From a virus, in IMG/VR virus record IMGVR_UViG_3300049827_000256, positions 1 to 38,453 of that record: 38,453 nucleotides of DNA. One strand, written 5' to 3'. A program made the translations under genes and the position numbers. Within the stretch, counting starts at the first letter, position 1. Each line of letters begins with the position of its first letter. Below, piece after piece: positions 17,393 through 38,453 of the stretch. A model generated the notes under the pieces. It was not told the origin of the DNA. It did no database searches and was given only the letters and a program-made list of their open reading frames with translations.

Positions 17393-20122
17393 TCATCCCA
17401 TGAGGTTGGCGACGGCCAGGGCTGACTCCTGATCGTAGCGCTTCTGAACGGACTTTCTGACGGCCTCCGTGGAAGATCCATACTTGGTCTTGCGGATGTC
17501 GTAAATGGCCTGCAGCAGCTTCACCGGGTCCTTGGTCCCAACCTTGGCGATGGCTTCCCCGAAAATCTTGGCCGCTCCAGCCGGGCCGTGCCCCGCCGCC
17601 GTGCTCCACAGGACTTGCTTCACCGCGTCGGGCTGGTCGTTCACGTTGTATCCGGTCTGCTTCAGGACCGCCTCTGCCGCCGGGGTGTAGTGGGACTTGT
17701 CCATGAAATCGTGCTGGAGCTGGTCGAACTTGTCGGGCTGCTCCTTGGCGATTCGCTGCCATTCTTTGGGAACTGATCCGGACGTGCCTCCCGTGTTGGC
17801 CTGGCCGGCCGCCGAGAGTCGTTGATGGATATCCGGGGCCTGGTCCTTCAGGTACCCCATGAAGTTGTCGTATGTACCAGTTTTCGAGGCGATCTGATAA
17901 CGCCCGTAGGACGTTCCGCCCACTTCGTCATATCCGACCGCGGCCGGCCCTTTGTCGCCTGATTCGAACCGGGCCGAGAGAGCCCCGAGCTTCATGGATT
18001 CGCTGATGGGCCGCCTCATGCTGCGCTTGTCGTCAACAGGGAGGTCCATCTGGTATCCCTTGCCGCGCGGCTCGAAATACTCCTTCTTCAGGGAGTCGAT
18101 ATCGATCTTGTAGGGTTTTCCTGTACTGTCAGCTACAGCCAAACCCGTAGTGGGGTGTAGGAGAACAAAGCCATTCCCGTCGGGGGAGTTGACCCACACG
18201 CCGCGCTGTTGGAGATCACGGACGCGCTCATCGAGGATCTTGCCCTGCAGGAGGGGCTCACCCGACTTCACCCACTCCGCCGCCTTCGATTTTCGAATGG
18301 TGTCGAGCGCGCTTTCGATCTGCGCAGGTTTAAGGCCGGAGCTTTTAGGGTAGAAGATCTGCGCCAGGTTGTCTTGGCTCACGGCGTCATAGGTGTTGTT
18401 CAGGATTTCGATTGCTTTCTTAGAGTCTCCGGACGCCAGAGCGGTATTGACGAGACCCTTTTGAAGCTCGGAAACAAACGCCAGGTGAGAGGAGTTCTGT
18501 GGTTGATACCGGCCGACCGTTATCAACGCCTTCATCACGTCGTTGGTTTCGAGCGCCGCGTTGGTGGATTTCTTGATCGCATCTTTCTCCGCTGGAGTGC
18601 CTGGGATGTCGGATTCCTTCATATCCGCCGCCTGGATCAGCGTGCGAGCGAGGATGATGTTCTTTACGTCCGCCCCGTGGGCTGCAACGGCGAACTGAGC
18701 GCCAGCCCCAAGCCCGAGCTCGGCGATGGCCTGCCCCTTGTAACGACCAAGACCGTTCAAGCTCTCCGTGAAACCAAGACGCTCATCCGGCTTCATGGTC
18801 GCCCACGATTCCCCGAAATTCTTGGCCTGGTCGGTTCCGAAAATCTTGGGAGCGAAACCCGGAACACCCTTCGCCATCTCCTGCTGAATCGAGAAACTGA
18901 CGGCCGTACGTTCTTCCTGGGACGCCCCTGGCATCTGGATTGCCTCGACCATCGGCTGGACGTAGGCCACAGGATCGGCCGAGAAGCGCTTGATTCGCTC
19001 GTTGACCACCCGCTCAGCCATGTCCCCCGCGTGGATCCGCTCCTTGGCTCCGGACTCGCCGGGCGAGACGGTGAACATCCGTTTCACCTCGTCGGCCTGG
19101 TCCATCAAGGGCATGTGATCGAAACCCTTGACCACCTTGAAGGTATCCATCGCCACGCGCTTCTGATCGCGGTACTTGTCGGCCAGGTCGAGCGCCTGCT
19201 CGGTGCCGAGCCCACGAAGCCGCCCCTCGATATCAAGGGGCCCCTCCTCCCCAATCTCGGCCATGGTGGCAATGGAGTCGTCTGCCTTGGATGCCAGAAG
19301 ACGCGCCGTCCGGTTCTGCTCGGCCTCGTATTTGCGCTGATCCGCTTCGGCCTGGGCGGCGAGCCTGTCCTTCCGCTGTTCGGCCTTGTCCAGCATGCGG
19401 CCGCGTTGGGTCTCGTCGAGGTTGGTGTATCCCCCGGAATTCAACTTCCCGATGGCAACATCCGGCCCGGAGTCTCTCATGTCCTTCTCGAAGAGCCCCT
19501 CGTTGAGCTTCAGCCCGAACGCCTGCTTGAGCTTGGGCGCGTGGTCCGCCCGGATCGCTCCCGTCGAAACATACTGGTCCACCATGTTATCGTAGTCGTC
19601 CCGGATCTGCTGAATCCCAAGGTCCGAATTCGATCGGAGCGCGTTGTTCAACATGTCCTGCTCGGCAGTCCCGAACGTTCCAAGGGAATTCAAAATGGTC
19701 TGTTGTCGCGTGGTGTGGGCGATGTGCAAGCTATGCGTAAGCGCGTGGTTCTCGAATGTCTGCTGGAACCTGGCTTCGAACGCTCCGTTGACCTGTTGGC
19801 CACGGTATTGCTCGCGCAGGGAGCCCATTGCCTCCTGGTACTTGGCCTTGCCGGCTTCAGGGTCCGCGATGAACTCAGGGCTGTTGATGGTCTGGTCGTA
19901 AAGGTCCGCCATGGCCTTCTGTGATTCCACCAGGCTCTTGATGTATTGTTCGGTTCCTTTGATCTCCTGGTATTGCTTGGCGAGGCCCTGGACGGTATTC
20001 CCGACCGTTTCGGCAAACTGCCCCATCGCGGCGAATTCCGCGCCGGCAGCGGCCGGATTCATCCGAGGGGACTGCATGGCCGGAAGGCCGATACTCGCTT
20101 CATACATCGGAATCTTAGGCAC
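17393..20122 (-). CDS. Internal virion protein with C-terminal muramidase-like domain
   Basis: The 909-aa protein starts at GTG (GAGGGGGAAGC upstream). The first 650 residues are helical, with repeated Gln/Glu/Arg-rich segments such as RKYEAEQNRTARLL, resembling podovirus core proteins (T7 gp15/16 class). Residues about 710-909 form a lysozyme-like domain: SARFESG (Glu720 candidate catalytic), GYDEVGGTSYGRYQIAS and VLWSTAAGHGPAGA, the pattern seen in VgrG3-type and phage muramidases. It should locally open peptidoglycan during DNA entry. As no stand-alone endolysin is seen, it might also contribute to lysis. Confidence 0.75.
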   Translation of the reverse strand: MPKIPMYEASIGLPAMQSPRMNPAAAGAEFAAMGQFAETVGNTVQGLAKQYQEIKGTEQYIKSLVESQKAMADLYDQTINSPEFIADPEAGKAKYQEAMGSLREQYRGQQVNGAFEARFQQTFENHALTHSLHIAHTTRQQTILNSLGTFGTAEQDMLNNALRSNSDLGIQQIRDDYDNMVDQYVSTGAIRADHAPKLKQAFGLKLNEGLFEKDMRDSGPDVAIGKLNSGGYTNLDETQRGRMLDKAEQRKDRLAAQAEADQRKYEAEQNRTARLLASKADDSIATMAEIGEEGPLDIEGRLRGLGTEQALDLADKYRDQKRVAMDTFKVVKGFDHMPLMDQADEVKRMFTVSPGESGAKERIHAGDMAERVVNERIKRFSADPVAYVQPMVEAIQMPGASQEERTAVSFSIQQEMAKGVPGFAPKIFGTDQAKNFGESWATMKPDERLGFTESLNGLGRYKGQAIAELGLGAGAQFAVAAHGADVKNIILARTLIQAADMKESDIPGTPAEKDAIKKSTNAALETNDVMKALITVGRYQPQNSSHLAFVSELQKGLVNTALASGDSKKAIEILNNTYDAVSQDNLAQIFYPKSSGLKPAQIESALDTIRKSKAAEWVKSGEPLLQGKILDERVRDLQQRGVWVNSPDGNGFVLLHPTTGLAVADSTGKPYKIDIDSLKKEYFEPRGKGYQMDLPVDDKRSMRRPISESMKLGALSARFESGDKGPAAVGYDEVGGTSYGRYQIASKTGTYDNFMGYLKDQAPDIHQRLSAAGQANTGGTSGSVPKEWQRIAKEQPDKFDQLQHDFMDKSHYTPAAEAVLKQTGYNVNDQPDAVKQVLWSTAAGHGPAGAAKIFGEAIAKVGTKDPVKLLQAIYDIRKTKYGSSTEAVRKSVQKRYDQESALAVANLMG

Positions 20123-20661: not shown

Positions 20662-21138
20662 TCAGTAAACCTTTGCGTAGAGGTGACAGGTTTCTCCGTC
20701 CATCGCGAACTTTCTCATCCCATCGTCTTTGGTCTCTCTGACAAATCCCATCTTTTCGACAAACCGACGACTGAAGGTTTCTCCACCATCAGGGATGAAA
20801 ACCTGGATGCGCATCAGGTTATGACGAGCAGCCACCTTTTCGAAATCTCGCAACAGAGCCCGAATGATTCGCACCCTGGCGAGCGGAGCCTGATCCGAGA
20901 CGACCAGCCAAAGCTCTCCGACTCCTGGCCAGTACTGCATGATGCCACAGCACCCGACCACTTCCCCGTCGATGATGCCGGTGAAGGCCGGTCCGAGTTG
21001 AGCCTGCGCTCTCACCCGGTCGAGATACGTCAGCCACGGGAATTCCTTGACGGTCCACCGCTTGTCCTCGTCCGAAAGCGTCCCCAGCGCGTCGATGTGC
21101 CACGGCTCGAACGGGGTCACAATGAGCTTGTCTCCCAC
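20662..21138 (-). CDS. GNAT-like acetyltransferase-fold protein
   Basis: The 158-aa protein has a GNAT-like course: VTPFEPWHIDAL at the start, AFTGIIDGEVVGCCGI (beta strands 2-4), GVGELWLVVSD, then a helical segment and RIQVFIPDGGE...FVEKMGFVRE, where VEKMGF is the typical strand-5 region. The acetyl-CoA P-loop (Q/RxxGxG/A) is poorly preserved (PLARVRIIRALL), so it may be inactive. Such proteins are common between tail and core genes in podoviruses. The GTG start overlaps the upstream stop (TAGTG). Confidence 0.7.
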   Translation of the reverse strand: MGDKLIVTPFEPWHIDALGTLSDEDKRWTVKEFPWLTYLDRVRAQAQLGPAFTGIIDGEVVGCCGIMQYWPGVGELWLVVSDQAPLARVRIIRALLRDFEKVAARHNLMRIQVFIPDGGETFSRRFVEKMGFVRETKDDGMRKFAMDGETCHLYAKVY

Positions 21139-27708: not shown

Positions 27709-27959
27709 TACGCTTCCTCTTCTGTTGCCGTGAGTGGTTTCTTCGACTCCATGGGAGCCGACATCATCCTGACTATATGGTGAAACACGCTTCGCCTCCC
27801 CTCTCGGAAGGCAATGTCGGCGTGCGTTCCGCCATGAACGAACGAAATTTCATTGAACCCTGTGAAGGCCATGAGATCGGCCAGCACCATTTCCGGGTGC
27901 TCCCCGGAAAACGCGATCCGATACGAAATCATGAGCTGCTTGAGGTCTTCGTCCGTCAC
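27708..27959 (-). CDS. Bbp19-like small protein
   Basis: The 83-aa protein (MTDEDLKQLMISYRIAFSGE...) has the YRIAF, VLADLMAFTGF and ADIAFREGRRSVFHHIV elements of the phage domain named after BPP-1 Bbp19, normally encoded between portal and scaffold as here. The function is not established; a head-assembly or internal-head role is presumed. Its start overlaps the portal stop by ATGA, its stop overlaps the scaffold start. Confidence 0.75.
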   Translation of the reverse strand: MTDEDLKQLMISYRIAFSGEHPEMVLADLMAFTGFNEISFVHGGTHADIAFREGRRSVFHHIVRMMSAPMESKKPLTATEEEA

Positions 27960-29629
27960 TGCTGCATCCCCATCTGTTGCATGATGTCGGCTGGTTTGAT
28001 CCCACCGGCGCTCTTATCAATAAGCCCGGCATCAGCGGCAGTTTTAGCCCCGGCCACCAATCGCTCGGCGCTGGCCGCGTCCGCCGCTTCCTTCATGACC
28101 TCGGCCTTGGCCTGCCGAATGGCGTCGCGCTGCTTGGGATCCTTGAGCCACGACTGCGGAACCCCGGAAGACTCGCAGATATCCAGGAAGACCGCGTCCG
28201 TGTCCACATTGTCGAGCACTTCCGGGACGGCCTGCACCAGGGGCCCGGCGTTCGAGAACGCACGCATCAACGCTCCGGCCCTCTGGAGCTTCTGGCCCAT
28301 CATGAGCGGGCTCTCATACTGGACTTCGATCTTCGATCCAGGGTTCTCTTCGGCCCACTTCATCAACAAATCAGGGATGGGTGGGAGCTTCCCGGCCCGG
28401 TAGCAGATCCCGAAAATGCGGTCCACCATCGGGTCGAAGAACTCATAAAAGAGGCGCCCCCCGACCGGACCCAGGATCCGCGCCTGGTCCTGGTAGCGCT
28501 GAACGACCTCGGTCGCCGTCATGTTCGGGTTGATCGGGAGCTGCAGCAGGTCCCCGTGAAACGCGTTCGTGATCGCCGATCGCTTGTCCTGCTCGAGCTC
28601 CATCACGAACGGGAGCTGCGACGGGACGGGCATGGCCTCAATCCGCGCCTGCATCTGCTTGTTATAGAAGTTGATGGCGTTCGGCCCGATCCGGATCGGC
28701 ATCATGTACCCATCGTCAGGGACCTGAAGCGGGGGTTTGGCGATCCGTTCCCCGGCCTTCCGGTTGGTCTCCACCATCTTGTTGAGCTGCTTGGTGTCGG
28801 CCAGGGCAACCATCCCGTTGGAGCGCCCGTAAAGTTCTCCGGTTTGCTTGCTGAGGCGAGGGACGCACCAGGGGAACTCGTAGTATCCGCTCTCCTTGAT
28901 GATGTGGTGGCCGGCGTGCTCGATCGTCACGGAAGCCCACGGGAGGTTCCGGTTGTCCTCCTTTCCGGGGTCGTAGTCGTGCCTCGGATAGACGCAGTGG
29001 AGGATTGTGATTTTCCCGTCCGGCTTGTCGACCGAGTTCTGCTTCACTGCCGAGGATACCGCGTCCCCATACTCCTGCACGGCCTGCCGGTTCGTCATCG
29101 GGACCTTACGGAAAACCGTGTCCACCGACCCGTCCGAAGCCTCGGCGACCACGCAATCGGTTACGGAATACGTCGAGAACCGGAACATCGTGACAGGGTG
29201 CTCGTCCACATAGATCGGGCTCGTCCCGAAAAGCCCGAGATCGTAGCACGCCTGGTTGAACTCCATGTGAAAGTTGGAGCTGTTGAGGTACGAATGAAGA
29301 ACCTCCGAGCTCTCCTCGAGGAACCGGGAAATCTCCTTGTCCTTCATCATCCGCTTGTCCGGGACGTGCAGCGAGAACATCGTCGCGCCCGGGTTGGCTA
29401 GCAGGGAGTGGATCGCATTGGCGAACTTCCCGAGCTGATACGTGGGATGGCTGTCGAAGATGTACTCCGTGCCCTTGGCGCCCTGCATCTGGGACGTAAC
29501 CTCGGCCTTCCATTGCCGCCAGGGCATGAAGTATTGCGCTAGCTCCCGCCACTGGGACACGAACGCGGATCGCTCGCTCTCTAGGGCGTCGAATCGTCTG
29601 ATCAGATCTCCGGCCTTGTCCGTACTCAT
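27956..29629 (-). CDS. Portal / head-tail connector protein
   Basis: The 557-aa protein matches podovirus head-tail connectors: WRELAQYFMPWR near the start, FDSHPTYQLGKFANAIHSLL, YDLGLFGTSPIYVDE, PMTNRQAVQEYGD, and the long stem/crown helices with TATEVVQRYQDQARILGP and RLFYEFFDPMVDRIF. Twelve copies form the portal through which TerL packages DNA and to which the gp11-like adaptor binds. The C-terminal helical tail (residues 500-557) is typical. Confidence 0.9.
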   Translation of the reverse strand: MSTDKAGDLIRRFDALESERSAFVSQWRELAQYFMPWRQWKAEVTSQMQGAKGTEYIFDSHPTYQLGKFANAIHSLLANPGATMFSLHVPDKRMMKDKEISRFLEESSEVLHSYLNSSNFHMEFNQACYDLGLFGTSPIYVDEHPVTMFRFSTYSVTDCVVAEASDGSVDTVFRKVPMTNRQAVQEYGDAVSSAVKQNSVDKPDGKITILHCVYPRHDYDPGKEDNRNLPWASVTIEHAGHHIIKESGYYEFPWCVPRLSKQTGELYGRSNGMVALADTKQLNKMVETNRKAGERIAKPPLQVPDDGYMMPIRIGPNAINFYNKQMQARIEAMPVPSQLPFVMELEQDKRSAITNAFHGDLLQLPINPNMTATEVVQRYQDQARILGPVGGRLFYEFFDPMVDRIFGICYRAGKLPPIPDLLMKWAEENPGSKIEVQYESPLMMGQKLQRAGALMRAFSNAGPLVQAVPEVLDNVDTDAVFLDICESSGVPQSWLKDPKQRDAIRQAKAEVMKEAADAASAERLVAGAKTAADAGLIDKSAGGIKPADIMQQMGMQQ

Positions 29630-29846: not shown

Positions 29847-31262
29847 TTATTCGGTTGCGTCCCGGTAATGCCGCAGCTGGGACTGGTTTGTGCGTTGCTT
29901 GGCGCCATGCTTCCCGAGAATGACAGCCATCCCGTACCCGAAAGCGTCCCCCGGGTGCGAGTGCATGTCCTTCACAGCCTGGTCGCGAATCACCTTCCCG
30001 GACGCGTCCTTCCTGTAGTGCCAGCCGCCGCGCAGCGCCCGGTTGAGCTTCCCCTCGTGCGGAGAGACGAGAACCATCGGACCGCCGTCGATGAGCCTGC
30101 TGAGGGCGTCCTTGCACCCCTCCCGACGCGGCCACCAGTCGATGGGGCCCGGCTCGAACGTCCCGCCAAGCTCGGTCTCGATCACCCTGGCGCCGGTCTG
30201 ATCTGAGTCGCTCTGCTCCCGGTTGCGCAGCGCAGGATCCCCGATGTCCCTCCACCTGGGGATGCGGCTCTCGGCATAACGCGGGCTCTCGAGCGTCGGC
30301 TTCACGTGGTTTTTGAGCAGCTGCCGGAGCCCCATGTTCTCACCCACCCACGTGTCCAGGACGTGGACTCTCCCCCGCGGCGTGACCTGGGCAACGATGC
30401 AGGTGGGGTTTAGCCCGCCGTCCCAGAACCGGTAGCCGTCCGCGCCGGGAATCGGATCCAATTTGACCTTGGCTCTATGGATCTCCTCGTTGTACTCCGG
30501 CGTCACCTTCTCCCCGATCTGGACGAAGGCGAACCGTCCGTCCACGTAGCGCATGTACAGGCCCTGGTCGTTCATAAACGCGGCCTTCGTGGCCTGGCGC
30601 GTCATATCGGCCTGATAAGTGTTGTCCCCGTAGGGAATGTTGAACACCTTGAGACTGAGATCCGGGAAGTCACGCGACGGGAACCGCGGATTCTCCAGAA
30701 ACTCGTGATACGTCCAGTGCTCCTCGTCCGCCGGGTTCATCGTCACCTGAAGGCGAGGGAGAAGCCCGGCCTCGGCGTGCTCGACGTTGATGGCCCTGGA
30801 AACGCGGCTGATGCAGGCATCGAACACCTCGACGCTCATCCCTGCGTTGGCCTGCTCGATCATCGGCGCCGGCTCCTCCATCCAGATGAACGCATATTCC
30901 GCTCCCTGGATCCGGGTGAGACTTCCGAGATCGTCCATCCCGAAAAGGTCGATATCCATGGACCCGTCGATGGACGTGAGCTTGTGGTAGTCCGACTTCC
31001 ACCGGATCAGCGTGCCGACGCCCTTGGCGTTCATCGCCTTGTTGATCGACCCGACCGTCATGCGCTTGATGTTGGCGTGCGTGTCTCGTACGATAGCCCC
31101 CGGCATGGGCTTTCCTGTCACAGCCTTCCACCTCTGGCCAGCCAAAAACATGGCGATTGCCCCGGCCCACGTCTTCCCTTCGCCCTGCGGCCCGATGAGA
31201 CAGGCCACCGTCGCCGGCGAGCGGATGAAAGCGTCCTGGATGGGAGAGGGGCGAATATCCAT
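29847..31262 (-). CDS. terL: Terminase large subunit
   Basis: The 471-aa packaging motor has Walker A GPQGEGKT (residues 24-31), Walker B with catalytic glutamate YAFIWMEE (123-130), and a C-terminal RNase H-like nuclease with Asp281 (FWDGG), Asp339/Asp342 (RDIGDP) and Asp439 (HPGDAFGYG). It cuts and translocates DNA into the capsid with the small subunit (97-522, or version B at 37326-37685). TerS and TerL are separated by the tail-fibre block. The packaging mechanism (headful or cohesive) cannot be told from sequence alone, though a circularly permuted map would favour headful. Confidence 0.92.
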   Translation of the reverse strand: MDIRPSPIQDAFIRSPATVACLIGPQGEGKTWAGAIAMFLAGQRWKAVTGKPMPGAIVRDTHANIKRMTVGSINKAMNAKGVGTLIRWKSDYHKLTSIDGSMDIDLFGMDDLGSLTRIQGAEYAFIWMEEPAPMIEQANAGMSVEVFDACISRVSRAINVEHAEAGLLPRLQVTMNPADEEHWTYHEFLENPRFPSRDFPDLSLKVFNIPYGDNTYQADMTRQATKAAFMNDQGLYMRYVDGRFAFVQIGEKVTPEYNEEIHRAKVKLDPIPGADGYRFWDGGLNPTCIVAQVTPRGRVHVLDTWVGENMGLRQLLKNHVKPTLESPRYAESRIPRWRDIGDPALRNREQSDSDQTGARVIETELGGTFEPGPIDWWPRREGCKDALSRLIDGGPMVLVSPHEGKLNRALRGGWHYRKDASGKVIRDQAVKDMHSHPGDAFGYGMAVILGKHGAKQRTNQSQLRHYRDATE

Positions 31263-31269
31263 GTGTCCA

Positions 31270-31584
31270 TCAAACCTGTGAGAGGTTCACGACCTTGTAA
31301 CGATACTCCGAATTGAGCGGCAAGCTCCCTGGAAGCGTGGCCTCGACGGTAACAAGCCGCGTCTCCGTAGCGTTCCCGGAATCAATGATGGCGTTGTCGC
31401 TCGCCGCTAAAACGATGCTCACCGTGGCGGCCGGAGTGACGCTCGTATCCCCTCGGATACTTTGCCCGTTGGTCTCGCAATAAATCGAGTACGTAACGGC
31501 AGAAGGAACGACCACGACCCCGGCCGAATCCCTGAACTCTACCGTCAGCGTCCCAGTCGAACCCTCGTGGATTTTTCTCATCAC
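31270..31584 (-). CDS. Small beta-sandwich structural protein
   Basis: The 104-aa product begins MMRKIHEGSTGTLTVEFRD and continues with alternating beta strands (SAVTYSIYCETNG, TVSIVLAASDNAI, EYRYKVVNL). This is an Ig-like pattern often found in phage neck or fibre accessory proteins. It starts within the fibre gene stop (ATGA overlap) and ends seven bases before TerL. Exact role unknown. Confidence 0.6.
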   Translation of the reverse strand: MMRKIHEGSTGTLTVEFRDSAGVVVVPSAVTYSIYCETNGQSIRGDTSVTPAATVSIVLAASDNAIIDSGNATETRLVTVEATLPGSLPLNSEYRYKVVNLSQV

Positions 31585-33608
31585 GCATCTTCCGTAAGGG
31601 TGAAGATCATGGACGGCTTTGAAATACCGACGAGATTCTGACTCACACTGATCCCTCCCTCGGCGCCACCGGTGCCTGATGCCATCATCTGCATCTGTCC
31701 CGTTCTCATGTCGATGGTCATGCTGAACGCGATGATGTCGGCCATCGAGATAGCGACAGCCTCCTGGATCGAGCAGGAGTCGACCACTCCAGGGACGTCC
31801 AGGTCGGAAACGGATGACGTTGACGCTGTGACCTGCTCGGAGGCGGCAAGTGATTCGAGCGCCACGATGTCGGCCAGGGATGCCACCCCTGAAACAGACT
31901 CACCAGTCGCCGCCTGGTCGGATGTCGAGGCCTGAAGGTCGGACAGCGCAACGGAGATCGATTCCGAGACCGCCGTTGAATCTATGGGAGCAGAGATATC
32001 GACGTCAGGGATCGACGTGAGCGCGGCGCCAACCTGCTCCGCACCGGAGACGGAATCGAAGATGGAGATATCCGAAAGTGACGACACCCCACCCGTAAGC
32101 TCGTCCGACGAAACCTGATCGACCGTTGAAACCCGCAAATCATCAAGGGCAAGACCGATCTGTTCAGCGGATGCGACCGACTCAATTGGTGCGGAAACGT
32201 CCAGGTCGGGAACCGAAGAAAGCGAGGTCGCAACCTGTTCGGCAATCGCCACCGAGTCGAATTGAGAAATGTCCGCCAGGCTCGCGATGGCCGACAAAGA
32301 CTCGTCGATAGATGCCTGGTCGGAACACAGAACCGGCAGGTCCGAGAATCCCGAGGAGAGTTCCCCCGCGGTGACAGAATCGACAGCGGAGATGTCGCCT
32401 AGCGAAGATGCCCCAGAAATAGTCTCGTCGACAGAGGCTTGGTCGACGGCGTTGGCCTGCAAATCGTCCAGTGAAATTATGACGGATTCGGATGCAGCAA
32501 CGTCTTCCGTCTCGGCAATTGTCAGATCGCCAGCACTGCCCAGATTAACGGTGACGTTTTCCGACGCCGCTATATCTTCGTTTTCAAAAACGTCCCCAAT
32601 GGAAGCATCTACAGCAACAAACTCTGAGATCGAGCCACTGTCATTGACGGACAGGGAAACCCCACCCGAGATTCCCTTGATTTCAACCGCAGCAATCACC
32701 CAAGTCTGAGTGCTTGGAGCGGTCATCCCTACCGTTTTCGTACCAGAGGCCCCAGCGTCGGGATGAAATCCACCGTGGACCCCATAACGGGCATTGTCGG
32801 CATAGTATGATTGTTCGGAAAACGACCCGGCCCCTGAACGCCATGTCCGCGCACCGGATACCGCCGACCAGTCCCCGACTATTACAACAATCGCGCTATT
32901 GTCTTGAGTCGTCGTAATGTCGAGCGTTGGCTGTCCCGAGCCATTGTTTTTGGCGCTTGCCCCAACTCCATCCGAGCCACTGAAAAGAAGGACGTTGCCG
33001 CCAAAATACACTCTTGTTCCATCAATACATGTAAAGGCGACATTCTTCCCGCTCTGGTTACTGCCAACTGTCCCCGACCAAATAGCCAGCTCGCAGTTGT
33101 CGGCCAGTTGGTGGGATTGTTTGAGGGACCATGTAATCGAGAGCGTGCCGGCAGGCGGATACCCAAGTGGACCTTGGCTCGCGGACGGTTCGTAGTTTTC
33201 GGACACCGAGTACGCGACCAGCACATCCCCGGTTAGGACGTCAAAATTAGCCGTGGTTTTAGGACTGGTTGTGCTGTTCCAGGCTGTTTGATAAAATAGA
33301 GGAATTGACGCGCCGACCTGTTCATCGACCGAAGCGGAATCATTAACCGAGACGGATAACCCAAGTTCCGCGAGGTAGGCCTGAGCATAGTCGACCGTCG
33401 ATACCTGCTCATAGGCGGATATCGAGGCGTCTGAGATCGCAACTTGGGCAATTTCCGAGGCTGAAACGGATTCATCGGCAGGGAAGAGGGGAAGACCGGC
33501 GGCAATGACCGCAACGGTAACAAGCTCCAGGCAGGACAATCCCTCGTTGACGCTCACCGAGAGGTCGCTCAGTCCTACCGATACTTGTTCGTTTACAATC
33601 GCACCCAT
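31581..33608 (-). CDS. Ser-rich repeat fibre with inserted lectin-like domain
   Basis: The 675-aa protein has two repeat regions around a globular domain. Residues 1-100 and 316-629 contain degenerate units of about 21 residues with the pattern DxxSxxExVxxxLxDLxxS; residues 105-315 form a beta-rich, Cys- and Trp-containing domain (SLKQSHQLADNCELAIWSG ... TWVIAAVEIKG) like carbohydrate-binding jelly rolls. From residue 450 the units run as a 25+21+21 super-repeat of 67 residues. The C-terminal 45 residues are unique (MRTGQMQMMASG). Probably a beta-solenoid-like shaft with a receptor-binding domain. Ser is the dominant residue and a glycosyltransferase gene lies six bases upstream. Confidence 0.7.
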   Translation of the reverse strand: MGAIVNEQVSVGLSDLSVSVNEGLSCLELVTVAVIAAGLPLFPADESVSASEIAQVAISDASISAYEQVSTVDYAQAYLAELGLSVSVNDSASVDEQVGASIPLFYQTAWNSTTSPKTTANFDVLTGDVLVAYSVSENYEPSASQGPLGYPPAGTLSITWSLKQSHQLADNCELAIWSGTVGSNQSGKNVAFTCIDGTRVYFGGNVLLFSGSDGVGASAKNNGSGQPTLDITTTQDNSAIVVIVGDWSAVSGARTWRSGAGSFSEQSYYADNARYGVHGGFHPDAGASGTKTVGMTAPSTQTWVIAAVEIKGISGGVSLSVNDSGSISEFVAVDASIGDVFENEDIAASENVTVNLGSAGDLTIAETEDVAASESVIISLDDLQANAVDQASVDETISGASSLGDISAVDSVTAGELSSGFSDLPVLCSDQASIDESLSAIASLADISQFDSVAIAEQVATSLSSVPDLDVSAPIESVASAEQIGLALDDLRVSTVDQVSSDELTGGVSSLSDISIFDSVSGAEQVGAALTSIPDVDISAPIDSTAVSESISVALSDLQASTSDQAATGESVSGVASLADIVALESLAASEQVTASTSSVSDLDVPGVVDSCSIQEAVAISMADIIAFSMTIDMRTGQMQMMASGTGGAEGGISVSQNLVGISKPSMIFTLTEDA
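31722..32663 (-). repeat. In-gene tandem repeats of the fibre shaft
   Basis: This is the coding stretch for residues 316-629 of the fibre. About fourteen units of 20-25 codons are visible. At 31722-32261 they are grouped with a period of 201 bp (67 codons): 450-516, 517-583 and 584-629 (partial). Units are diverged in DNA but keep Asp-Ser, Glu-Gln-Val and Asp-Leu/Ile positions. Such a region can expand or shrink by recombination. Confidence 0.7.
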
Positions 33609-33614
33609 GAATCG

Positions 33615-34466
33615 TTATCCTGCTTGCTTGAACTCTTCGGGGAGAAATTCAGCCTCTTCACGGTGCGCCGGATATTGAGTCCCGTCCCAATCGATATGAC
33701 GGCAGAAGATCGAAGTATCCATCAGGAAGGGGTATTCCTTGCCCTCGAAATCTTTCCAACCGGCTTTCTCGAAAATCTTGTTCGTCATGACCCGGGTGCA
33801 CCACTCGAGGTCCTCCGTCCCGCAGCTGTTGAACCACGACCGCGTCTCAGGGTCGAACCAGGTGCGGCTGGGAGTTTCGAAGATGCGGCGCACGGTCTTG
33901 CCGGCGACGACCTGGTAGGCTTCGCTTTCCTCGTAGAGCGCCTTGAGAATGGAGGAGTGAATGAGCGTGCAGCCCATCGGGATCCCGTCCACCCAGACTT
34001 TCTCCCCGAGGTGCCAGTCCGCGAAATAGCTGTTGCCACGGCCCCTGTAGATGAGCGGCTCGGAGGGGACGGATTTGGTGAAGTAGAGCCCAGAGACGAC
34101 CGGTGTGTCGGCTTTGAGCATGTACTCGTTGATCTTGAGGAGCGCCATAGGAGGCAGGATCGTGTCGTGGTCGATGAAAAACAGCCACTCGAAGCCCTCC
34201 TCGACAGCCGAGGTGGCGATGATGTTGCGCGCATCGGCCACGGAGAAATTGAGCGGGCTGTACTGATCGATCCAGCTCAGGCAGTCCACCTGAGACCAGT
34301 TGCACGGGATGACCTGGCCGTAGCGTGCCAGCACCCACTCTGACCGAAGCAGGCCGGTCATGGGGATCCCGACCATGATGCGGTTTTGAGCCGCGCTTTT
34401 CTTGGCGAATATCTTTCCGGTGTAGCCGTCCGCAAGAACATCCTTCACAACATCATCAGCTTTCAT
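33615..34466 (-). CDS. GT-A-type glycosyltransferase
   Basis: The 283-aa product shows a GT2/GT-A fold: IMVGIPMTGLLRSEWVLA at the first strand, NFSVADARNIIATSAVEEG, then FFIDHDTILPP with a DxD-type Asp99-His100-Asp101, and a downstream GCTLIHSSILKAL and CGTEDLEWC region with an ED pair. It should transfer a sugar from a nucleotide-sugar donor; the acceptor is unknown. It lies between a methyltransferase gene (11-base overlap) and the Ser-rich fibre, in the late operon. Modification of virion proteins is therefore more likely than of replicating DNA. Confidence 0.75.
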   Translation of the reverse strand: MKADDVVKDVLADGYTGKIFAKKSAAQNRIMVGIPMTGLLRSEWVLARYGQVIPCNWSQVDCLSWIDQYSPLNFSVADARNIIATSAVEEGFEWLFFIDHDTILPPMALLKINEYMLKADTPVVSGLYFTKSVPSEPLIYRGRGNSYFADWHLGEKVWVDGIPMGCTLIHSSILKALYEESEAYQVVAGKTVRRIFETPSRTWFDPETRSWFNSCGTEDLEWCTRVMTNKIFEKAGWKDFEGKEYPFLMDTSIFCRHIDWDGTQYPAHREEAEFLPEEFKQAG

Positions 34467-34935
34467 CGGCCACCACCTTTTCCATGAGCACTTCCATGTT
34501 GCCGGTCACCTGCCACACGGGGAAACCCTCCAGGATCTTCCACGGCTTTGGGTGGTAGATGCTATAGAGAACCTCGTACTTGGGATCGAAATACTTCCAG
34601 GTGTTCTCGTTGCACGGGTTGCAGTGGGTCGGGTCCTGGATGAACCCGGGCGACACCCCGTAGGGCATGGAGAGCGCCAGCCTGCCGCCCGGCTTCATGA
34701 TGCGCCAAAGCTCGTTCATGAGGTCGAGCATCAGCCAGGGCTTGACGTGCTCGACGATGTGGCTGCCCACGATCGTGATGCACGATTCGTCCTCGAGCGG
34801 GTACGGGAAGACCTCCAGGTCATGAACGATGTCCACCCCTGGAAGAGAGCGCTTGTCCATCCCCGTGAACCCGTGCTGCTTGTTGCCACCGCACCCGATG
34901 TCCAGGCAATAGCCCTTGAGCTTGTCCAGATCCAT
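34456..34935 (-). CDS. SAM-dependent methyltransferase (class I)
   Basis: The 159-aa product has the SAM-binding motif YCLDIGCGGNKQHGFTGMD (motif I and acidic strand 2), a motif-II-like DESCITIVGSHIVEHV, and WRIMKPGGRLALSMPYG, as in Methyltransf_11/25 small-molecule or sugar methyltransferases. There is no DNA-methylase catalytic motif (N/DPPY). Overlap with the glycosyltransferase suggests they act in sequence, for example methylating a transferred sugar. Confidence 0.8.
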   Translation of the reverse strand: MDLDKLKGYCLDIGCGGNKQHGFTGMDKRSLPGVDIVHDLEVFPYPLEDESCITIVGSHIVEHVKPWLMLDLMNELWRIMKPGGRLALSMPYGVSPGFIQDPTHCNPCNENTWKYFDPKYEVLYSIYHPKPWKILEGFPVWQVTGNMEVLMEKVVADES

Positions 34936-34944
34936 AACCCTCCT

Positions 34945-35430
34945 TTACCCGAGCCGGATTTGATAGCTGACGTTGACGTTCTGGTTCGTGTTGCACGAAC
35001 TGCTCGCGTAAGTGTTGCCCGCGAACAGCGTGTTGGCTGCCGTGGTCCCGTTGTAGAGACCGATGTTCGAGAGATTGCTGGCGCCGGCCAGGAAGTTGTC
35101 GGTGCTCCCGAACGTCGCCGTAAATTGAACGGTGCAGGACCCGCCGTTGATCGTGCGAGAACTGAAGTTGGTCGTCACCGCCTTGCGCTTCGTGCTGGCG
35201 CTGATTTCTCCGGGGAGGGTGACGGCATCAGATGCCGGAGCGCCACCCGTTCCAAGCGCCACATACCCGACCTGAAGCGACCCGGCCTGACCCATCAGGC
35301 AGCGCGCCAGGTAGTATTCCAGCCCCAGGTTGGTGACCATGTTCTTCTTCCACCCGGAGTCCCCGACGATCTTCCCACCTTCTTCAATTTGGACCCGAAA
35401 GAACCCCTTGGCTTTGATTCCATCTCTCAT
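34945..35430 (-). CDS. Beta-rich tail-associated protein
   Basis: The 161-aa product (MRDGIKAKGFFRVQIEEGG...) has the phage tail pattern NMVTNLGLEYYLARCL, VGYVALGTGGAPASDAVT, KRKAVTTNFSS and a Ser/Asn-rich C-terminal half ending VSYQIRLG. It resembles the small distal-fibre or collar-like proteins that begin with a structured strand and the VALGTGG loop. The start at 35430 follows AAAGGAG with nine bases spacing; the longer frame to 35526 has no site. Confidence 0.65.
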   Translation of the reverse strand: MRDGIKAKGFFRVQIEEGGKIVGDSGWKKNMVTNLGLEYYLARCLMGQAGSLQVGYVALGTGGAPASDAVTLPGEISASTKRKAVTTNFSSRTINGGSCTVQFTATFGSTDNFLAGASNLSNIGLYNGTTAANTLFAGNTYASSSCNTNQNVNVSYQIRLG

Positions 35431-35551
35431 CGTGCACTTCTCCTTTCTTGAATTCATGAGGCATGCAGGCCACCGCCTGATTGCAATCCGCGACACTGAT
35501 ATTGAGGTCCGCGACCCCGCCAGCACTCTGTAATAAAATCAGCAGGCTCAT
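35384..35551 (-). CDS. Short protein related to fibre repeat units
   Basis: The 55-aa frame starts at an ATG overlapping the stop of the upstream tail gene (ATGA) and ends at 35384, overlapping the next gene by 47 bases. It begins MSLLILLQSAGGVADLNIS, and VADLNISVADCNQ resembles the repeat units of the fibre at 31581-33608. It may be a remnant or a small coupled protein. The second half lies inside the next gene and is less convincing. Confidence 0.4.
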   Translation of the reverse strand: MSLLILLQSAGGVADLNISVADCNQAVACMPHEFKKGEVHDERWNQSQGVLSGPN

Positions 35552-37685: not shown

Positions 37686-38333
37686 TACTTGAGCCTCATC
37701 GCCCCGACCTCAGGTCTCGGTTGCACCATCGTCGCAAGCCTTGAGTCTATCCGATCGAGCGTGGCCACTATCTGCTGCGCGAGCTGAAGCATCGTTGGAG
37801 CTCCATGAGGTGGAATCGCCTCAAACGTCGCGACAACCACGGACCGCGCCTTGACACTTGCCAGCGTGTAACTGGTCACGGCAACCCCGTTGACCGTAAC
37901 GGACTTGATCCGTGAGTTTTGATCCGGCGTCACAGTGAACGCCACCGGCTTCCCGTCCTGTCGGCAGGATGGAGCCTCCGGAAGAAGCCGACACAAGCAC
38001 CGGGTGGCAGAGGATCTCGTTGGAAAAAGCGCTCTCCCTGGAGCCGGCGTCGTAAGACGTCGCGGCGACGTATCGAGATGCTGACGGGTCGAGGTCCATG
38101 GATCCGGTGGTTCCAGTTCCTGCAATCGTGACGTTCGTCGTATAGGTCCCGCTGACAGTCCCCTGATAGAGCTTGTACCAGGAAACCGCTCCGGTGCTTG
38201 CGTTCCACTGGAAGTTGACTTGGGTGGCGTAGGCGATCCCTGCGAGCATGACGCGAGTGAAAATCCTCTTGTACCAGTTGAACGGGTGGATGCAGGCCAG
38301 GGCAACCAGCACAATCAGGAGAGTCTTCTTCAT
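37685..38333 (-). CDS. Membrane-anchored Fn3 surface protein, version B (frameshifted)
   Basis: The start at 38333 (MKKTLLIVLVALACIHPFNW) gives a hydrophobic anchor, the conserved ALACIHPFNWxKRIF motif also seen in version A, then a clear fibronectin-III domain (VNFQWNASTGAVSWYKLYQG ... SYDAGSRESAFSNEI). Near 37957-37964 the frame breaks: GGSILP is read in one frame and DGKPVAFTVTPDQNS, IKSVTVNGVAVTSYTLASV in another. Together they rebuild a known repeat-type domain (GGSIxP ... VTPDxxxxIKSVTVNGV). One base skipped (an extra G) would restore a roughly 215-aa protein ending in EVGAMRLK. It is either a sequencing/assembly error, a pseudogene or a programmed shift. Without correction the frame runs on to 37821. 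Confidence 0.6.
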
Positions 38334-38453
38334 CGGCTTTCGTCCTTCCCTATTTTCTGGCTCGTGCACCAGGTCCGGATGATCATCACCAGCATTCCGC
38401 AAAGTGAAATCAGTTTCCCGCTCAGCACTTCCGGGACCCATTCCCCGAGATAC
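38330..38453 (-). CDS. C-terminal end of a membrane protein, version B (cut by window edge)
   Basis: The reading frame enters from the right edge and ends at TGA 38332-38330, overlapping the Fn3 start (ATGA). The visible 40 residues include KLISLCGMLVMIIRTW, a probable transmembrane segment, followed by a basic tail (CTSQKIGKDESR). Gene order equates it with the version-A lipoprotein/holin slot, so a lysis-associated membrane protein is plausible. Only the end is visible. Confidence 0.55.
   Translation of the reverse strand, partial: YLGEWVPEVLSGKLISLCGMLVMIIRTWCTSQKIGKDESR

Follow-up and report, generated by a model that had tools for sequence, protein, structure and literature searches.

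Virion glycosylation in tailed phages has been documented in few systems. It is said that Freeman et al. described it, in 2023, in mycobacteriophage Che8 and its relatives. In published accounts of mycobacteriophages, the C-termini of the capsid and tail tube proteins are reported to carry glycans (PMC12619734; PMC11256854). The A197 protein of STIV is presented as an essential viral glycosyltransferase, with the major coat protein as its suggested substrate (PMC10551542) and, in Gram-positive bacteria, the serine-rich repeat protein (SRRP) system is described as a Ser/Thr repeat protein encoded beside its own glycosyltransferase (PMC6973325). Here, we analyse a full IMG/VR virus record, IMGVR_UViG_3300049827_000256 (38,453 bp, called the window below), in which genes for a putative glycosyltransferase (GT) and a methyltransferase (MT) lie between those for a gp80-like, fibre-type protein and a Ser-rich repeat protein. 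The first three genes keep their order in nearly all related loci, and we consider that there is an even chance that the four form a mobile late-gene cassette whose enzymes attach a methylated sugar to a structural protein of the phage.

The locus may be compared with each of these systems. As in Che8, there is a phage-encoded glycosyltransferase, and the Che8 enzymes modify virion structural proteins; by contrast, here a single GT-A enzyme and a dedicated MT have a fibre-type protein and a repeat protein as their neighbours, and the system is known from its genes alone. A197 (PDB 2c0n) is the best fold match of the GT and its sole profile match in the PDB, although the two proteins share only 17% identity and STIV is an archaeal, non-tailed virus. 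The likeness to SRRP adhesins, which a sequence-only reading of the window had proposed, holds only for the general idea of a Ser/Thr repeat protein adjoining its glycosyltransferase, whereas the repeat found here is anchored by Asp and Glu, with a length of ~21 residues. The GT does not match the GtfA/GtfB priming pair (DUF1975) in Pfam, neither this pair nor the SecA2/SecY2 accessory export system was found among the window proteins scanned, and the repeat is not a regular Ser-based one (Ser autocorrelation p=0.89). On these features, an SRRP-type system was rejected.

Gene order and conservation of the cassette

In the window, the genes and repeat blocks in question are the following:

34945-35430, minus strand: gp80-like small fibre-type protein, 161 aa (PHROG/Pfam similarity; conserved upstream of the MT)
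34456-34935, minus strand: class I S-adenosylmethionine (SAM)-dependent MT, 159 aa (Pfam Methyltransf_11, LDIGCG motif, family alignment)
33615-34466, minus strand: predicted GT-A fold glycosyltransferase, 283 aa (fold model, invariant residues)
31581-33608, minus strand: Asp/Glu-anchored, Ser/Thr-faced repeat protein, 675 aa (composition, periodicity, repeat profile)
33294-33608, minus strand: N-terminal repeat block of the latter, residues 1-105, three Glu-anchored units
31689-32672, minus strand: its main repeat block, residues 313-640, in which 14 units anchored on Glu recur at spacings of 20-25 residues

The gp80-like gene and the MT are separated by 9 bp, the MT and the GT overlap by 11 bp, and 6 bp lie between the GT and the repeat protein. 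The sequence-only reading had described the last three genes, with correct coordinates, strand and tight head-to-tail packing; it had missed the fourth, the gp80-like gene upstream of the MT. The large terminase and the portal are encoded on this strand too.

The conservation of this arrangement was examined in IMG/VR. One scan returned 157 GT relatives, 80 of which were taken and joined with loci from MT and gp80 scans, and synteny was counted over the 100 distinct GT loci with usable upstream DNA. In 99 of them, the three genes share a strand and gp80 is followed by MT and MT by GT, the median gaps being 38 and -7 bp, so that a phage-encoded GT is linked to a structural-type gene through its gp80-like neighbour. 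The exception, L060, holds all three genes and is a detection artefact of an over-extended open reading frame (ORF) call. All loci found by their MT (at least 45% identity) have a gp80-like gene upstream and a GT downstream wherever the contig is long enough. Likewise, an independent scan seeded with gp80 found MT and GT downstream in all loci with enough DNA except L129, the sole such locus with neither enzyme. Thus, it is the gp80-like gene that invariably accompanies the enzymes and not, as had been supposed, that of the repeat protein, which directly follows the GT in 10 of the 77 distinct GT loci that have at least 2.5 kb downstream (a regular-expression repeat ORF is present in 45 of them).

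The pairwise distances of GT, MT and gp80 are correlated (r 0.47-0.59, Mantel p 0.001), and GT identity across cassettes goes down to about 45%. The carriers are unrelated phage backbones, not one lineage; of 48 cassette contigs, only one has a portal scoring above the cut-off for Head-tail_con, the type present in the window, and the PF04860 portal is found in 16. Some copies contain inserted genes, namely NAD-epimerases, sulfotransferases, extra methyltransferases and homing-type endonucleases. For instance, NAD-epimerase/GDP-mannose dehydratase, sulfotransferase or extra methyltransferase genes lie within or just upstream of the cassette in L044, L083, L106, L157, L012, L006, L024 and L082, and homing-type endonucleases (NUMOD3, HNH_3) are located between gp80 and GT in L111 (5832-6701) and L055 (5649-6368). 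It is possible that the sugar-enzyme inserts record diversification of the glycan.

The encoded enzymes and the gp80-like protein

The GT scores below every Pfam cut-off; among its sub-threshold matches are Glycos_transf_2 (E 0.016; 15.5 bits against a cut-off of 23.3) and Anp1; the latter, matched weakly by 6 of 19 GT relatives, reaches 14.5 bits against 28.8. A model built from 19 relatives (pLDDT 80, pTM 0.79) predicts a GT-A fold, for which a Foldseek search of the PDB placed STIV A197 at the top (E 2.7e-8), followed by the human collagen galactosyltransferase COLGALT1 (1.9e-5) and the lysyl hydroxylase LH3, with B4GALNT1, Mnn9 and the polysaccharide enzymes KfiA and heparosan synthase as further neighbours. 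In a profile search of PDB sequences, A197 was the only match (E 0.025); a single-sequence search had given only antibody and kinase noise. The protein contains the motifs DHD (99-101), GTED (216) and FCRHID (254), within which D101, D219 and H257 are invariant in 19 GT sequences. The enzyme is probably active, since it has a D-x-D motif for metal and nucleotide-sugar binding (here DHD), followed by D219 as the presumed catalytic acid and by H257 towards the C-terminus.

The MT passes the Methyltransf_11 cut-off (22.1 bits, cut-off 21.2), and the glycine motif I, LDIGCG, is present in its family alignment, as expected of a class I SAM-dependent methyltransferase. Both enzyme calls of the sequence-only reading are, consequently, upheld: that for 33615-34466 by the predicted fold and the conserved motifs, and that for 34456-34935 by the family cut-off. 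No transmembrane stretch was predicted in either protein.

The gp80-like protein matches phrog_5417 (E 2.2e-10) and the tail fiber family phrog_4176 (E 5e-6). It is also weakly similar to gp80 of fibre I of podophage GP4 (Pfam Gp80, PF23140; E 0.0019), although the score of 18.9 bits misses the cut-off of 27; PF23140 is matched by only 1 of 20 members of the gp80-like family and PHROG 5417 by 13, the latter being the better family. Its start is probably the conserved ATG at 35430, as the family alignment begins MRDGIKAKGFF, while the listed ORF begins at a GTG at 35526. Conserved Ser/Thr positions occur in this protein, for instance in the C-terminal TYASSS region.

The repeat protein and the surrounding genes

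Ser makes up 16.6% of the repeat protein and 19.8% of residues 313-640. In the latter region, however, its autocorrelation lies within that of shuffled sequences (p=0.89), whereas shuffling shows a periodicity of 21/25 residues for Glu (p=0.001) and for Asp (p=0.0005), with units spaced 20-25 residues. Hence, of the Ser-rich, regularly spaced repeats that had been noted from the sequence, the richness stands and the regular spacing of Ser does not. A set of 391 distinct units, collected from related loci, gives a consensus of roughly I-S-V-S-D-S-V-T-V-T-E-S-V-T. Asp occupies position -6 in 77% of them (Glu was fixed by the design of the search), most even positions are hydrophobic, and odd positions are most often taken by Ser/Thr (78% at -3), which are interchangeable on one strand face, a term that here refers to residue alternation only. 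The composition of this face was measured with a pattern requiring neither Ser nor Thr; at odd positions, Ser+Thr amount to 63% in GT-bearing repeat contigs and to 18% in other ORFs when the corresponding sites are compared; on the presumed exposed face, Lys/Arg are nearly absent. In the protein of the window the figure is 46%, mostly Ser. Such a hydroxyl-rich face would fit the role of an acceptor for O-glycosylation. The protein has no Pfam match, a weak PHROG match (E 0.15) and a fold model with a pLDDT of 33; Pfam searches with five repeat proteins gave nothing credible, TPR_XPO7 and DUF1699 being below their cut-offs.

A scan with the single repeat protein matched only itself, and a first repeat pattern gave 4 matches. 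A two-unit repeat profile was then applied to whole contigs (the window protein matches repeat profile A5, E 1.4e-12). Of 48 cassette contigs, 42 contained the repeat by this measure, against none of 17 random viral contigs drawn by random 16-mer (Fisher p 5e-11). In a first control set the profile was found in 3 of 30 contigs, a figure biased upwards by the fact that 22 of the 30 had been picked by the repeat pattern. In the opposite direction, among 35 contigs that were collected for their repeats and not for the cassette genes, GT is present in 22, gp80 in 23 and MT in 21, while GT is found in 0 of 31 contigs that match the same pattern with fewer than four repeats. These percentages are not independent estimates, because the profile was derived from the cassette and IMG/VR holds near-duplicate contigs; nevertheless, the difference from the random control is too great to depend on redundancy or profile origin. 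The co-occurrence of enzymes and repeats in other phages, proposed as a check by the earlier reader, is thus positive both ways. Four contigs of more than 35 kb (L200, L215, L222 and L239) carry the repeat with no GT detected.

On the minus strand, the order is gp80-like protein, MT, GT, repeat protein, a 104-residue ORF, large terminase and portal, the last three being:

31270-31584, minus strand: 104-residue ORF
29847-31262, minus strand: large terminase (Pfam Terminase_3, 2.6e-6)
27956-29629, minus strand: portal (Pfam Head-tail_con, 1.9e-122)

Elsewhere in the window, a 909-residue virion-type protein (17393-20122) ends in a type VI secretion system VgrG3-like domain (T6SS; Pfam PF21277, E 3.9e-31), and an ORF amid tail-type genes (20662-21138) resembles a GNAT acetyltransferase, by eye only. 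The ORFs near both ends of the record, 537-935 and 37821-38441, each have an N-terminal stretch like KKT-LI-L-ALACIHPFNW-KRIF and resemble a pair of exported paralogues.

Proposed function and competing explanations

In the mechanism that we propose, the GT would use an activated host sugar to glycosylate Ser/Thr hydroxyls on a protein encoded in the same cassette. This acceptor may be the repeat protein, with its exposed Ser/Thr face, or the gp80-like protein, one end of which is conserved and rich in Ser/Thr; both may also be modified. The small MT would then O-methylate the added sugar, and sulfotransferases or extra methyltransferases could vary it further in some phages. The purpose might be protection or masking of an exposed fibre, as the sequence-only reading suggested. 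That reading had O-glycosylation of the Ser-rich fibre followed by methylation of the sugar; the enzyme families and the co-occurrence agree with it, but the closest partner of the enzymes is gp80, and the repeat is anchored by Asp/Glu. Judging from the sequences, gp80 appears to be the more intimate partner and the repeat protein the more obvious acceptor by composition, and both are kept as candidates. A more detailed version is put forward only tentatively, and we consider it rather doubtful: a widespread but as yet uncultured, self-contained and interchangeable sugar-coated fibre unit of tailed phages that moves between unrelated phages, with the repeat protein as acceptor, gp80 as partner or anchor, and the GT and MT supplying the methylated sugar.

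We favour decoration of a structural protein because of the obligate synteny, the correlated distances, the differing backbones, the co-occurrence of the repeat, its Ser/Thr face, the GT fold, the sugar-enzyme inserts and the predicted solubility of the enzymes. Several observations weigh against it. The placement of the gp80-like protein on the virion, as a putative structural component, rests on PHROG/Pfam similarity, and we likewise infer that the repeat protein is a virion fibre. Ser+Thr on the repeat face are the same in contigs with no detected GT (0.62 vs 0.63, p=1.0), many of which are fragments, so a repeat tuned as acceptor by the presence of the GT is not favoured, its Ser/Thr richness being independent of this enzyme. 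Both the pattern and the profile used for the repeat come from cassette loci, and the contigs are partly redundant. Finally, since polysaccharide enzymes such as KfiA and heparosan synthase are among the closest matches of the GT, the acceptor class cannot be read from its predicted fold, and neither can the donor.

These polysaccharide enzymes are also an argument for the main rival, in which the target of the GT and MT is a glycan on the host surface (lipopolysaccharide, capsule or teichoic acid). Its alteration at a late stage of infection would prevent readsorption or superinfection, while the gp80-like and repeat proteins form a receptor-binding fibre accompanied by the enzymes that modify the matching receptor. 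Selection could act jointly on genes for receptor binding and on such enzymes, and the NAD-epimerases and sulfotransferases of some copies would suit this role as well. We nevertheless find it unlikely, as no flippase, membrane-bound Gtr-like protein or serotype-conversion partner was found among the window proteins scanned, both enzymes are predicted to be soluble, and the fibre-type gene adjoins them nearly always in unrelated phages.

This constancy also bears on a quite improbable alternative, that of a mobile adsorption cassette whose genes merely spread together while the enzymes act on an unrelated small molecule. That the cassette crosses backbones and carries homing endonucleases in some copies does indicate a mobile unit, but unlinked functions would be expected to separate, and gp80, MT and GT almost never do despite GT identities of ~45%. 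Hypermodification of phage DNA seems very unlikely. Phage glycosyltransferases that act on DNA are well known, according to PMC12619734; however, the genes considered here have fibre-type genes on one side and terminase genes on the other, the MT belongs to the Methyltransf_11 type, neither an enzyme for base hydroxylation nor one that modifies nucleotides was found among the window proteins scanned, and the linkage to gp80 and the repeat would be left unexplained.

Phage-encoded virion glycosylation is already known, but a conserved four-gene unit of this make-up looks like a new form of it, if its chemistry is confirmed. No description of such a cassette was found in the open-licence literature searched. 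In 50,697 deposited phage genomes the GT, the gp80-like protein and the repeat protein have no match and the MT has nine distant ones, while a scan of genome contigs gave four matches only, all metagenome-assembled. The cassette appears to be common in environmental viruses, as judged from the 157 GT relatives of one scan, yet three of its four proteins have no counterpart among the deposited phages, and it would, consequently, have gone unstudied. If the proposal is true, a four-gene cassette shared by unrelated phages would provide a clear gene-level signature of virion glycosylation, together with a testable acceptor.

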